Assembly (NCBI RefSeq): GCF_022008395.1
Contig: NZ_JAIRBB010000001.1
Location: 434,001-498,000 of the forward strand
DNA length: 64,000 bases
Direction of reading: 5' to 3'
Source of the DNA: Aequorivita xiaoshiensis
Lineage (GTDB): Bacteria; Bacteroidota; Bacteroidia; Flavobacteriales; Flavobacteriaceae
Shown one piece after another: positions 47,966-52,426 of this stretch (position 1 is its first letter; each line of letters opens with the position of its first letter). A program made the translations under genes and the position numbers. The notes beneath the pieces are model-generated. The model ran no database searches, was not told the origin of the DNA, and saw only the letters and a list, made by a program, of their open reading frames with translations.

Positions 47966-48688
47966 ATGAAAGTAATCAATCTTATCTCGGGTCCGCGAAA
48001 TCTTTCTACCGCCCTTATGTATTCGTTTGCACAACGAGAAGATATTTCTGTTTTAGACGAGCCTTTTTACGGTTACTATCTCGCTAACGCAGCATTGGAA
48101 AATGAGCATCCTTCTCAAAAAGAAATTCTACAAACTATGGAATTGAAAGAGGAAAAGGTGGTTGATGCTATAAACAAGCTTTCTAAAACCCAAAAGGTTT
48201 TTGTAAAAGGGATGGCACATCATTACCTAACAGACACACCACACTTTATATTAAATTGGGAAAATGTTATTCTTATTCGTCATCCAAAAAAATTGATTGC
48301 ATCCTTTTCAAAAGTAATCCACACCCCTACTTTGAATGATATTGGAATAAAAAAAGCTTCAGAATTATTCTTATTTCTGAAGAACAATAAAAAGACTCCT
48401 ACAGTTATTGATAGTGACGAACTTTTAAAAAATCCCGAAGCCTATCTAAGAAAACTTTGTAAATTACTGAAAATTCCTTTTTCTGAAAAAATGCTTCGAT
48501 GGGAAAAAGGCAGCATTCCAGAAGATGGAATTTGGGCAAAACATTGGTATAAAAATGTTCACAACAGCGAAGGGTTTAGGCTTCAAAAAAGTAGTTCTCA
48601 GCCCTTACCCGAACATTTGAAATCGTTGCTAAAAGAGGCTTTGCCCTATTACGAAACTCTAAAAAATAATATTGTGAATAATACATAA
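47966..48688 (+). CDS. Sulfotransferase-like P-loop protein
   Basis: A 240-residue cytosolic protein. The sulfotransferase-type nucleotide loop is at the N-terminus (SGPRNLSTALMYSF, about residues 8-21), and the 3'-phosphate-binding stretch could be VILIRHPKKLIASFSKV near residue 108. PEDGIWAKHWYKNVH near residue 190 is a distinctive C-terminal motif. No specific substrate is known. The next gene is a class IV aminotransferase. I recall a plant fusion (Arabidopsis At5g27410/At3g05190 type) that joins close relatives of these two proteins. Confidence 0.8.
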   Translation: MKVINLISGPRNLSTALMYSFAQREDISVLDEPFYGYYLANAALENEHPSQKEILQTMELKEEKVVDAINKLSKTQKVFVKGMAHHYLTDTPHFILNWENVILIRHPKKLIASFSKVIHTPTLNDIGIKKASELFLFLKNNKKTPTVIDSDELLKNPEAYLRKLCKLLKIPFSEKMLRWEKGSIPEDGIWAKHWYKNVHNSEGFRLQKSSSQPLPEHLKSLLKEALPYYETLKNNIVNNT

Positions 48689-48734
48689 TTATTATGAATT
48701 CAAACCAATACTATAAGAATACCGAACCCGAATG

Positions 48735-48842
48735 GTTCATATATTTATAGCAAACATCATTGAAACCGCATCCGGCCCCGATGGGGTCGTATAAATATCG
48801 GTTACTTTTTTCTATAAATATTTCATTCCTTCGGGATGAGGT
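48735..48842. repeat. Decayed intergenic element with two small hairpins
   Basis: In the 236-base gap (48689-48924), CCCCGATGGGG and CATTCCTTCGGGATG are G+C-rich mini-hairpins set in AT-rich DNA. GTATAAATAT and CTATAAATAT motifs follow them. I have the impression of a REP-like remnant common in related genomes, but there is no second copy in this window to prove it. Confidence 0.35.
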
Positions 48843-48900
48843 GCTAAAAAAAATATTTTAATTTAAAGGAAATTCTTTCTCGACATAACAACTCCATCAA

Positions 48901-48916
48901 CTCATAACTCATAACT
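48901..48916 (+). repeat. Heptamer repeat CTCATAA before the aminotransferase start
   Basis: Two exact CTCATAA units plus CT, 9 bases before the ATG at 48925. A similar heptamer (TTCATAA, three units) precedes atpC at 51641. Confidence 0.5.
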
Positions 48917-48924
48917 TCAATAAA

Positions 48925-49821
48925 ATGCTTCAAAAATCTAACCCCAAAAACGACTATATTCAAATATTTATAAAAGACAAGCTACACCCGCGAAGTGAAG
49001 CAAAAGTTTCCGTTTTTGACAGCTCGGTTCAAGGTGGTGACGCAGTTTGGGAAGGTTTACGCGTTTACCCTGAAGGAATAGTTTGTTTAGACAAACATTT
49101 AACTCGTTTACACGAATCGGCTAAAACCTTGGCCTTTGCAGATATTCCTTCAAAGGAATTCATCAAAAAGGCAATTAAGCAAACTCTCGATGCAAACGGA
49201 ATGACCGATGATACTCATATTCGGTTAACGTTAACCCGAGGTGAAAAGATTACAAGCGGTATGGATCCTAGATTAAATCAGAGTGGTTCTTGTTTAATTG
49301 TTTTAGCAGAATGGAAACCTTTAGTATACGACAATGACCATGGAATAAAAGTAATTAGTACAAGTCAAAGAAGAAATTCGCCGCAATTTTTAGACAGTAA
49401 AATCCATCACAACAACTTACTTAATAACATAATTGCAAAAATTCAAGCTAATGTTGCAGGAAAAGATGCAGGTTTAATGCTGGACGATCGTGGATTTATA
49501 GCCGAATTAAATGGCAGCAATCTTTTTATGGTAAAAGATGGTAAAGTTTTTACTCCATTCGCTCATGCCTGTTTACCTGGAATTACGAGAAACTCAGTAA
49601 TTGAATTATGTAAAAAACACGAAATTGAAATTTCAGAAGCCGATATTACACTTTCACAATTTTACAATGCCGATGGAGTAATTGCCACAGGGACTATGGG
49701 TGAATTGACACCTGTTGTTGAAATCGATGGCCGGATTATTCCTAAAGGAGACAAACTACAAAACAAGATAATCGATTTATTCTCGAAGGAGGTTCGTAGA
49801 CTTTGTGAAAAACTCGACTAA
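48925..49821 (+). CDS. PLP-dependent aminotransferase, class IV
   Basis: A 298-residue enzyme of the fold-type IV group (branched-chain aminotransferase, D-amino-acid aminotransferase, ADC lyase). The PLP-binding Lys is about residue 159 in FLDSKIHHNN. The phosphate-binding segment includes LPGITRNSVIEL near 215 and GTMGELTPVVEIDGR near 255. Which reaction it performs is not clear. The upstream sulfotransferase-like gene on the same strand is the likely functional partner. Confidence 0.88.
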   Translation: MLQKSNPKNDYIQIFIKDKLHPRSEAKVSVFDSSVQGGDAVWEGLRVYPEGIVCLDKHLTRLHESAKTLAFADIPSKEFIKKAIKQTLDANGMTDDTHIRLTLTRGEKITSGMDPRLNQSGSCLIVLAEWKPLVYDNDHGIKVISTSQRRNSPQFLDSKIHHNNLLNNIIAKIQANVAGKDAGLMLDDRGFIAELNGSNLFMVKDGKVFTPFAHACLPGITRNSVIELCKKHEIEISEADITLSQFYNADGVIATGTMGELTPVVEIDGRIIPKGDKLQNKIIDLFSKEVRRLCEKLD

Positions 49822-52111: not shown

Positions 52112-52426
52112 TTACTTAAAATAATACAAAGTATTTTGGCTATGATGTAAAACTCTTATGATTGAAATAGAATTTTTGGCAATTGAATAAAATACGAGGT
52201 GAGAACCATAAGGAATACTAAGTATGTTAAGTCCAATATCTTTTCTTAAAACACCTTCATTCGGAAAATTGGTTAATTGATTAAATAAGTGATGAAAACC
52301 ATCTAAATATTCTTCCGCTTGCTCAAATCCGAATTCTATAAGCGAATATTCATATATTTCAACAAGATCAAGATCTGCAGTTTCAGAAAGTTGATAACTT
52401 AAGAACTGTCTCTTATTCGAGTCCAT
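52112..52426 (-). CDS. ParE/RelE-type toxin
   Basis: A 104-residue toxin of the RelE/ParE superfamily. It has an N-terminal LSYQLSETADLDLVEIYEYS helix region, FPNEGVLRKDIGLNI in the middle and the C-terminal SHLVFYSIAKNSISIIRVLHHSQ strands. ParE members poison DNA gyrase, while RelE members cut mRNA; the ParD-like partner favours ParE. It overlaps the antitoxin gene by 14 bases. Confidence 0.88.
   Translation of the reverse strand: MDSNKRQFLSYQLSETADLDLVEIYEYSLIEFGFEQAEEYLDGFHHLFNQLTNFPNEGVLRKDIGLNILSIPYGSHLVFYSIAKNSISIIRVLHHSQNTLYYFK

Follow-up and report, generated by a model that had tools for sequence, protein, structure and literature searches.

A PAPS-type sulfotransferase and a lysine-less class IV aminotransferase-fold protein form a widespread bacterial gene pair that points to an undescribed sulfur-amino-acid step

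Two adjacent genes with family-specific motifs

The window analysed here, a 64,000-nucleotide stretch of the Aequorivita xiaoshiensis contig NZ_JAIRBB010000001.1, carries a gene for a PF19798 (Sulfotransfer_5) sulfotransferase, hereafter ST, followed by a gene for a PF01063 (Aminotran_4) protein, hereafter AT (Table 1). A preliminary description of this locus had reported two adjacent genes with four conspicuous motifs, and we indeed find both open reading frames, with SGPRNLST, PEDGIWAKHWYKNVH, DSKIHHNN and TGTMGELTPVV all present in their translations. The labels given to them there, sulfotransferase-like and class IV aminotransferase, hold for the families and for the class IV fold; the transaminase function implied by the second probably does not, the Schiff-base lysine being missing. 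In a near relative (locus L065), the two open reading frames are only 1 bp apart.

Table 1 Features of the ST-AT locus (positions in the window; residue numbers refer to the protein named)
Feature	Position	Strand	Remarks
ST, sulfotransferase, PF19798 Sulfotransfer_5	47966..48688	+	240 aa; Pfam E 8.7e-46
P-loop-like SGPRNLST, ST residues 8-15	47987..48010	+	Predicted 5'-phosphosulfate loop, by analogy of fold
R105-x7-S113 of ST	48278..48304	+	Predicted 3'-phosphate site for PAPS; aligned with CurM LVRHPYSVIESF
PEDGIWAKHWYKNVH signature, ST residues 185-199	48518..48562	+	D187, G188, W190, W194 and Y195 invariant in 71 rows
ST-AT gap	48689..48924	+	236 bp; imperfect inverted repeats inside
AT, lysine-less class IV aminotransferase-fold protein	48925..49821	+	298 aa; PF01063 Aminotran_4 E 1.5e-50
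R46 of AT, phosphate-cup Arg	49060..49062	+	R in 117/117; R61 position in the enzyme of PMC12429042
His161 of AT, at the Schiff-base lysine position	49405..49407	+	From alignment with relatives and Lys-type rows
E194 of AT, pyridine-N1 Glu position	49504..49506	+	E in 45/45 H-type
Cys216 of AT, beside the phosphate cup in sequence	49570..49572	+	Family-specific; C in 116/118 vs 2/19 Lys-type rows
GITR of AT, residues 219-222, phosphate cup	49579..49590	+	G219 and R222 in 118/118; T221 in 117/118

The sulfotransferase resembles PAPS-dependent enzymes

ST scores 156.6 bits against the PF19798 profile (cut-off 23.2), and its AF2 model has a pLDDT of 96. The modelled fold matches those of PAPS sulfotransferases, with the best Z scores obtained for 4gox (OLS, 14.5), 4gbm (CurM) and 5wrj (TPST1, both 14.1), and a profile match to CurM reaches an E of 1.1e-8. 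Foldseek with the same model also returns adenylate kinases at E about 1e-4, which have the P-loop arrangement in common with ST. Across 71 ST rows, P10, R11, N12, S14 and T15 of the loop are invariant and no variation is seen at R105 or S113, which we take to be the counterparts of R130 and S138 of SULT1E1. Judged from sequence and model, PAPS would be the sulfo donor of ST. A strong match to APS kinase was found in 33 of 34 ST genomes of the Bacteroidota sample and in 56 of the 213 others, with 14 candidates scored per genome; this kinase has a role in ordinary sulfate assimilation too. On plasmids, we found no AT at 1e-50 and two distant STs only, these being PF19798 genes near cysC/cysD on two Streptomyces plasmids with no AT annotated nearby. 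No relatives of AT were found on viral contigs.

The aminotransferase-fold partner lacks the Schiff-base lysine

By profile and by AF2 model (pLDDT 86) AT has the class IV fold: among the 50 class IV entries listed, Z scores of the model range over 28-35, the best being 9j32 (34.6) and 7z79 (34.4). None of the 23 curated NCBIfam models reached its cut-off against AT, the best score being 240.5 bits where the subfamily model requires 363, and ilvE_I scoring 205.2 against 245.55. The available passages of PMC12429042 describe the catalytic apparatus of a class IV enzyme, in which K158 forms the Schiff base, R61, T223 and T260 hold the phosphate, Y162 contacts O3' and E194 the pyridine N1. The DSKIHHNN motif of AT spans the Schiff-base position, and the lysine of the motif lies two residues away from the aligned residue, which is His161. 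Among 118 distinct AT relatives this column holds His in 45 (H-type), Asn in 73 (N-type) and Lys in none, whereas all 19 other class IV rows that cover it have Lys (5 further rows, gapped there, were left out). With the lysine missing in all covered relatives, the aminotransferase name probably assigns AT the wrong function.

The remaining cofactor contacts are a mixture of kept and altered positions. All phosphate contacts are retained, since the T257 position is T or S in 118/118 rows alongside R46 and T221. The pyridine-N1 position is never Glu in the N-type (0/73; T in 67, S in 6), and the O3' tyrosine is absent throughout, its place being taken by Leu165 in 45/45 H-type rows and by K or R in 73/73 N-type rows, compared with Y in 14/19 Lys-type rows. 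Many residues of the AT cleft are near invariant (R46, R100, R105, K108, E129, D157, N196, GITR), and mean column identity is 59% for AT (60 rows) and 51% for ST (71 rows). In a tree, 30 H/N rows fall on one side of a branch and 20 Lys-type rows on the other (support 93/90, not starred), and the N-type branch, which includes 7z79, has a support of 100/100.

One could speculate that AT still works as a branched-chain or D-amino-acid transaminase of the ordinary kind, its catalytic lysine having merely been relocated, to K159 in the H-type and K165 in most of the N-type. K159 is indeed found in 45/45 H-type and K165 in 67/73 N-type rows, and both the overall fold and the phosphate cup are those of BCAT. 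However, the candidate position differs by type, 34 of the 73 N-type rows carry R and 1 carries M at position 159, and residue 165 of the 7z79 clade is R in a stretch devoid of any Lys. In addition, AT stays below all NCBIfam cut-offs, and Lys-bearing class IV enzymes occur alongside it here as well as in other genomes with the pair. We consider a relocated lysine very improbable. To call AT a class IV aminotransferase is misleading, and transamination is not the kind of pathway to which the data point.

ST rarely occurs without AT

The ST-AT pair is found in many bacterial phyla, mostly adjacent, in either order, and sometimes unlinked. Taking a strong ST match as a PF19798 E of 5e-39 or better, AT was present in all 34 such genomes of a 247-genome Bacteroidota sample and in all 32 of a 349-genome Pseudomonadota sample, while AT without ST at the cut-off was seen in 3 and 4 genomes, respectively. 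The threshold removed two of 36 ST genomes in the first sample, G108 with a fragment (E 6.7e-7) and G147 with a weak match (E 7.8e-4), and from 33 in the second it removed G608, whose diverged but near full-length PF19798 gene (E 1.5e-16) is accompanied by no AT match. The AT cut-off used for the Bacteroidota sample missed at least G183, which was found in a later search, so that AT without ST is undercounted and the counts are cut-off dependent; likewise, Fisher values overstate the co-occurrence because the genomes are not independent.

Among the best 80 of a longer list of named ST loci, AT lay within the fetched stretch in 67, and in 65 of those the two genes were codirectional and at most 225 bp apart. 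The remaining 13 genomes comprise 11 with AT elsewhere, one with a fragment at a contig end, and one, that of locus L109, which has a typical ST and in which no AT was found, the single such case among the 80. Where the fetched stretch continued past ST without AT, AT was elsewhere in 11 of 12 named genomes, including all 6 Poribacteria, and 7 Pseudomonadota genomes also hold the two genes unlinked. Gene order follows AT type in the typed same-strand loci (ST-AT in 30/31 H-type, AT-ST in 32/32 N-type), while a quick and weakly resolved ST tree places closely related STs with ATs of both types.

An adjacency limited to this genome, which the preliminary description named as a possible refutation, is excluded by these data, as 66/66 strong-ST genomes in the two samples hold AT, mostly next to ST. 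Of the two arrangements it envisaged across genomes, adjacency was borne out at 65 of the best 80 named ST loci, and no single open reading frame with both domains occurred in the bacterial loci screened for fusions. Long overlapping open reading frames in L117, L129, L190 and L200 were considered as fusions and rejected as mechanical starts in another frame. The bacterial data by themselves lend strong support to the proposal of one shared pathway, through the 66/66 co-occurrence and the presence of both gene orders.

No third gene recurs beside the pair across lineages when the 941 neighbouring open reading frames of the 80 named loci are clustered. The largest clusters, of up to 12 loci, represent one neighbourhood shared within Flavobacteriaceae (Winogradskyella, Tamlana, Mangrovimonas and others), and smaller ones are confined to Saprospiraceae or to Aequorivita and its relatives. 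Taking one representative per cluster reduced 114 co-directional close neighbours to 63, of which 57 were Pfam-scanned after omission of 2 over 900 aa and 4 more; repeats inside clusters were judged from the clustering and not from the Pfam tally. The scan gave 94 families, the commonest occurring in 1/57 among the 25 listed, with no pathway gene, and 20 of the 57 scanned singly yielded no pathway gene either.

It is hardly credible, in our view, that ST and AT are unrelated and are neighbours only through inherited gene order. Within the one Flavobacteriaceae group the entire neighbourhood is indeed common property, but elsewhere the pair persists while its neighbours change between lineages, both orders occur, and the genes co-occur unlinked in the Pseudomonadota, Poribacteria and other genomes mentioned above.

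AT without ST usually lies beside amino-acid transporters

To the 40 AT loci fetched from 104 AT genomes (16 of family f29 and 24 of others, with f23 and f37 omitted) 3 further f29 loci were added; the f29 sample leaves out one f29 genome, G800. In f29, an amino-acid permease lies directly upstream of AT in 15/19 fetched loci and ST is beside AT in none, whereas the corresponding numbers are 0/24 and 20/24 in the loci fetched for seven other families belonging to the class. An amino-acid ABC transporter, of a type unrelated to the f29 permease, is found upstream of AT in 3/4 of the Pseudomonadota genomes with AT only. Neither ST nor the respective transporter was seen at 4/19 f29 loci and in G544. 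The f29 pattern represents one clade, and G486 and G598 are apparently close relatives, so that few independent events are involved.

These loci bear on whether AT is an enzyme at all. A non-catalytic AT would bind ST or an amino-acid ligand and would stabilise, target or allosterically control ST, the sole enzyme. Such a role fits the loss of the Schiff-base lysine in all rows, the other PLP contacts that differ between H- and N-type, the fact that a strong ST was never seen without AT in the 66 surveyed genomes, and the occurrence of both AT types with closely related STs in the weakly resolved tree. The many near-invariant cleft residues, together with an identity above that of ST, nevertheless seem to go beyond the needs of a scaffold, and AT is found without ST, beside amino-acid transporters; we therefore regard a non-catalytic AT as unlikely.

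A module acting on an amino-acid-like compound

We lean, with some reserve, towards a module in which a PAPS sulfotransferase and a non-transaminase partner act on the same amino-acid-like compound, and the pair as a whole points to an undescribed sulfur-amino-acid step. ST would move a sulfo group from PAPS onto an amino-acid-like metabolite, which the AT-fold partner would most likely bind, either sulfated or about to be, and the two proteins would presumably touch. With its phosphate cup kept and no lysine to anchor PLP, AT would not be a transaminase and may hold PLP or PMP loosely. Its step could be Lys-independent, for instance an elimination at the sulfated carbon or a replacement there, one or more active-site histidines serving as acid/base. 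This chemistry, like the use of PLP or PMP, is a guess that we would rate as rather unlikely to be right. The N-type has no pyridine-N1 Glu and the 7z79 clade no nearby Lys at all, which speaks against PLP electron-sink chemistry. Genomes without ST may import the compound instead.

A patent reportedly covers a two-domain 'PAPS:2-aminoacrylate sulfotransferase', and one could imagine the pair as a PAPS-dependent sulfonate synthase that turns serine or 2-aminoacrylate into, say, cysteate while AT holds a PLP-aminoacrylate adduct. ST is of the PAPS type by fold and profile, and the Thr or Ser at the N1 position of the N-type recalls fold type II eliminases. A reaction of this kind, a '2-aminoacrylate sulfotransferase' leading to L-cysteate, is included in a diatom metabolic model, but the passages of PMC7990286 at hand name no gene for it. 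Moreover, the literature searched under the enzyme's names yields nothing that links it to the pair, none of the scanned neighbours stood out as a gene for cysteate use, and C-sulfonation would be unusual for the ST fold, which together make a sulfonate synthase quite improbable.

Returning to the module of two partners, we tentatively raise, as a possibility somewhat short of even, that AT represents a new enzyme type: a fold-type-IV, Lys-independent protein (His/Asn) in an almost obligate team with a PAPS sulfotransferase, fused to it in plants and separate in many bacterial phyla, the two making or transforming a widespread amino acid, sulfated or sulfonated, that genomes without ST import. 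A family spread across many phyla is named transaminase without the residue that defines the activity, and its bacterial names therefore mislead. The near-perfect coupling to one ST family and the swap for a transporter offer a concrete route to the metabolite, which would be a sulfated or sulfonated amino acid.

Comparison with known systems

The plant counterpart is presumably the Arabidopsis At5g27410/At3g05190 type of protein, which we take to be a fusion of an ST-like and an AT-like part with DSKIHHNN. No literature was found under 'At5g27410' or 'At3g05190', nor any describing the ST-AT pair, in a search whose coverage did not extend to subscription papers and patents. The name of the plant fusion protein occurs as annotation only in the available parts of PMC9604395, PMC4783884 and PMC9557928, and in the parts available PF19798 is listed in a table of PMC11625862 and serves as a model for searching in PMC12506393.

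The CurM (4gbm) and olefin synthase (4gox) sulfotransferases and TPST (5wrj) have the fold and the R-x7-S motif in common with the window ST. Their substrates are acyl carriers or protein tyrosine. Identity to them is only 14-17%, and the window ST is a stand-alone protein of 240 aa tied to an AT-fold partner.

The closest known structure to AT is the Variovorax paradoxus aminotransferase-like protein 7z79 (mutant 9j32), with the same fold (Z 34.4-34.6) and 34-35% identity, for which no paper was found. Like AT it lacks the Schiff-base Lys, in place of which it carries Asn (the title of 9j32 names N174K), and it differs from the window AT in this Asn for His161 and in a Ser for Glu at the N1 position. 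It belongs to the N-type, and its nearest rows, L190-L192, adjoin ST. The branched-chain and D-amino-acid transaminases of PLP fold type IV (5cm0, 5e25, 1daa) share with AT the fold, the R46/T221/T257 cup and GITR, but the window AT is without their catalytic Lys and O3' Tyr, and its near-invariant W42, M93, H98, K108, E129, D157, N196, C216 and G269 are rare or absent in BCAT/DAAT-type enzymes. A precedent for loss of the lysine is provided by the PMP-dependent sugar dehydratases ColD and E1, in which His replaces the PLP Lys of an aminotransferase fold to give a dehydratase, although these, unlike the window AT, are of fold type I and act on sugar nucleotides.

Distribution of the gene pair

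The two adjacent genes encode a PF19798 sulfotransferase (ST) and a partner of class IV aminotransferase fold (AT), and all bacterial motifs that the preliminary description had read in them are present in the translations of the two ORFs listed below. The genome containing the window (3.06 Mb) has one PF19798 gene and four PF01063 genes, and PF19798 was found in none of 14 control genomes. The closest named relatives of the ST are from Aequorivita (82-85% identity). Since the two genes lie 1 bp apart in the near relative L065 and the gap in the window holds imperfect inverted repeats, short repeat material may have entered this gap.

Coordinates of the genes and side observations
Feature	Position	Strand	Description
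ST ORF	window 47966-48688	+	240 aa; PF19798 Sulfotransfer_5, Pfam E 8.7e-46
Intergenic gap	window 48689-48924		Imperfect inverted repeats, arms 48727-48754 / 48808-48835
AT ORF	window 48925-49821	+	298 aa; PF01063 Aminotran_4, Pfam E 1.5e-50
Small ORF	window 52112-52426	-	104 aa; ParE/RelE-type toxin look, judged by eye only
MTHFR gene	L085:1322-3046		Flavobacteriales MAG
Two AT matches	G797:C91:77824-78699 and 154872-155747	opposite	Equal-scoring, same contig; first in locus L302
Diverged PF19798 gene	G608:C75:54908-55510		E 1.5e-16; genome without lysine-less AT

The adjacency pointed out for this genome proved to be widespread. Among 247 sampled Bacteroidota genomes, PF19798 matched in 36 (a fragment in G108 and a weak match in G147), and an AT (E 1e-60 or better) accompanied it in all 34 genomes with a match at E 5e-39 or better. 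The two matches lie within 258 bp of each other in 31 of these 34 and about 1 kb or less apart in G219, and the pair is unlinked in G231 (330 kb) and G203 (separate contigs). Three genomes, G085, G239 and G242, have an AT and no strong ST, and searching them with the ST alignment gave no ST; the AT cut-off overlooked G183, whose AT was found by a later search. In the Pseudomonadota sample (349 genomes) PF19798 was present in 33, of which all but G608 carry an AT, adjacent in 25 and non-adjacent in 7, and four further genomes have an AT without ST. The Fisher values for co-occurrence in the two samples, 1e-38 and 3e-41, are overstated because genomes were treated as independent. The diverged PF19798 gene of G608, together with second, diverged copies in G331, G490 and G583, probably represents a separate subfamily with a different job. 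The two AT matches of G797 reflect either a recent duplication or an assembly artefact.

Searching with nothing but the ST alignment gave 80 named loci, the best 80 among the matches listed, from Bacteroidota, Balneolota, Chloroflexota, Poribacteria, Fidelibacterota, Verrucomicrobiota, Planctomycetota, Actinomycetota, Deinococcota, Calditrichota and Pseudomonadota, many of them MAGs. The fetched stretch includes an AT at 67 of the 80, on the same strand with a profile-to-profile gap of at most 225 bp in 65, at 1.8 kb in one and divergent in one; the other 13 genomes comprise 11 with a full AT elsewhere, that of L066 with an AT fragment at the contig start, and that of L109, in which a search for AT found none. 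Because no third gene was found to recur beside the pair across lineages, the two proteins may suffice, starting from a common metabolite. In one MAG (L085) the gene immediately upstream of the pair encodes an MTHFR whose C-terminal domain (PF21895) is regulatory and binds SAM, an arrangement familiar from eukaryotes.

An aminotransferase fold without its lysine

The label "class IV aminotransferase" holds for the fold, given PF01063 and an AF2 model (mean pLDDT 86, least certain at residues 151-160 with 58, just ahead of His161), and fails at the Schiff-base lysine. Of the PDB entries, 7z79 ("aminotransferase-like protein from Variovorax paradoxus") and 9j32, titled mutant N174K, align best with it; the alignments are free of gaps in this stretch and place window His161 (DSKI-H-HNN), and Asn in 7z79, opposite the lysine that forms the Schiff base in 5cm0. 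AT relatives divide into an H-type, with DSKIHHNNLLNN, and an N-type, with DPRLNCHSKLHE or a similar sequence, and Lys occupies this column in 0 of 34 covered rows of a first set (one fragment lacks the column) and 0 of 66 of the named set (one row lacks it). With identical sequences removed, the column is His in 45/45 H-type, Asn in 73/73 N-type and Lys in 19/19 other class IV rows (Lys-type), these being the rows that cover it, mostly from pair-bearing genomes, with five more gapped there. Without the lysine, transamination is unlikely. Should DSKIHHNN also be present in the plant fusion proteins, as we presume, the lysine would be missing there as well.

The PLP contacts reported for a fold-type-IV enzyme are K158 (Schiff base), E194 (N1), Y162 (O3') and R61/T223/T260 (phosphate) (PMC12429042). 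By alignment, the AT relatives retain the phosphate contacts (R46 in 117/117, T221 in 117/118, T or S at T257 in 118/118). At the position of the O3' tyrosine, which is lost, H-type has Leu and N-type K/R. The N1 glutamate persists in 45/45 H-type rows, and Thr/Ser stands there in 73/73 N-type rows. W42, M93, H98, K108, E129, D157, N196, C216 and G269 are near invariant in the family and rare or absent in Lys-type rows. The conserved cleft suggests ligand binding or catalysis over a pure scaffold, with a regulatory pseudoenzyme as the main rival reading.

In a 50-row tree each type is well supported, and a branch with support 93/90 (not starred) separates the two together from 20 Lys-type rows, several of which are long branches. 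Typed same-strand loci run ST-AT in 30/31 H-type and AT-ST in 32/32 N-type cases. In a quick, weakly resolved ST tree the two partner types are intermixed in places, as though either could serve the same ST.

The sulfotransferase and its probable PAPS supply

The AF2 model of the window ST (pLDDT 96) resembles PAPS sulfotransferases, namely the olefin synthase ST (Z 14.5), CurM ST (14.1) and TPST1 (14.1), with rmsd 4.0-4.2 over 211-214 residues; adenylate kinases are also among the Foldseek matches, with weaker E. A profile from 71 relatives matches CurM ST at E 1.1e-8, aligning R105-x7-S113 with its RHPYSVIES. P10, R11, N12, S14, T15, K81, R105, S113, D187, G188, W190, W194 and Y195 are invariant in 71/71 rows, and H85/H86 nearly so. 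A strong match to APS kinase, which makes PAPS, occurs in 33/34 ST genomes of the Bacteroidota sample (exception G119) against 56/213 others, uncorrected for relatedness, and in 13/13 ST genomes outside family f23. A distantly related PF19798 gene (28-29% identity; Pfam E 6e-16 and 7.8e-17) occurs on each of two Streptomyces plasmids (L341, NZ_CP108701.1; L342, NZ_CP108363.1), close to cysD, cysC, NRPS genes and genes for a GTP-binding protein and a protein of the penicillin acylase family. No AT is annotated in the vicinity, and the surroundings look like a sulfated peptide cluster.

Importers beside AT genes without ST

The gene immediately upstream of AT in G085, G239 and G242 encodes a PF13520 amino-acid permease, whose best match in the PDB is 6f2g (E 4e-46). 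AT occurs in 104 of 244 genomes of the class of G242, from which 40 loci were fetched. In the 16 from family f29, the permease precedes AT in 12 and ST adjoins it in none; in the 24 from seven other families, ST lies within about 2.4 kb in 20, the permease in none, and four f46 loci have neither. Including G085, G239 and G242, f29 has the permease upstream in 15/19, the exceptions (G183, G805, G806, G810) having neither permease nor ST at AT; genome-wide ST absence within f29 refers to G085, G239, G242 and G183. Three of the four Pseudomonadota AT-only genomes (G511, G486 and G598, the exception being G544) have a polar-amino-acid ABC transporter, with two permeases and an ATPase immediately upstream of AT and a binding protein nearby; no further AT was found among 28 other genomes of the family of G511. 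Loci L065-L200 gave no match at 1e-15 to the PF13520-like permease, ABC permease or binding protein, and distant ABC ATPases only.

Since a typical ST almost never occurs without AT, and since AT genes lacking an ST mostly lie downstream of importers for amino acids, which belong to two unrelated types, we suggest that the AT-fold protein handles an amino-acid-like compound made or modified by ST.

Relation to known systems

Sulfate is a good leaving group, and the STs of CurM and olefin synthase, the closest structural relatives of the window ST, sulfate a hydroxyl in preparation for elimination; in ColD/E1, Lys-to-His changes made dehydratases from aminotransferase folds. By analogy with these systems, a doubtful but conceivable route would be sulfation by ST followed by elimination or replacement.
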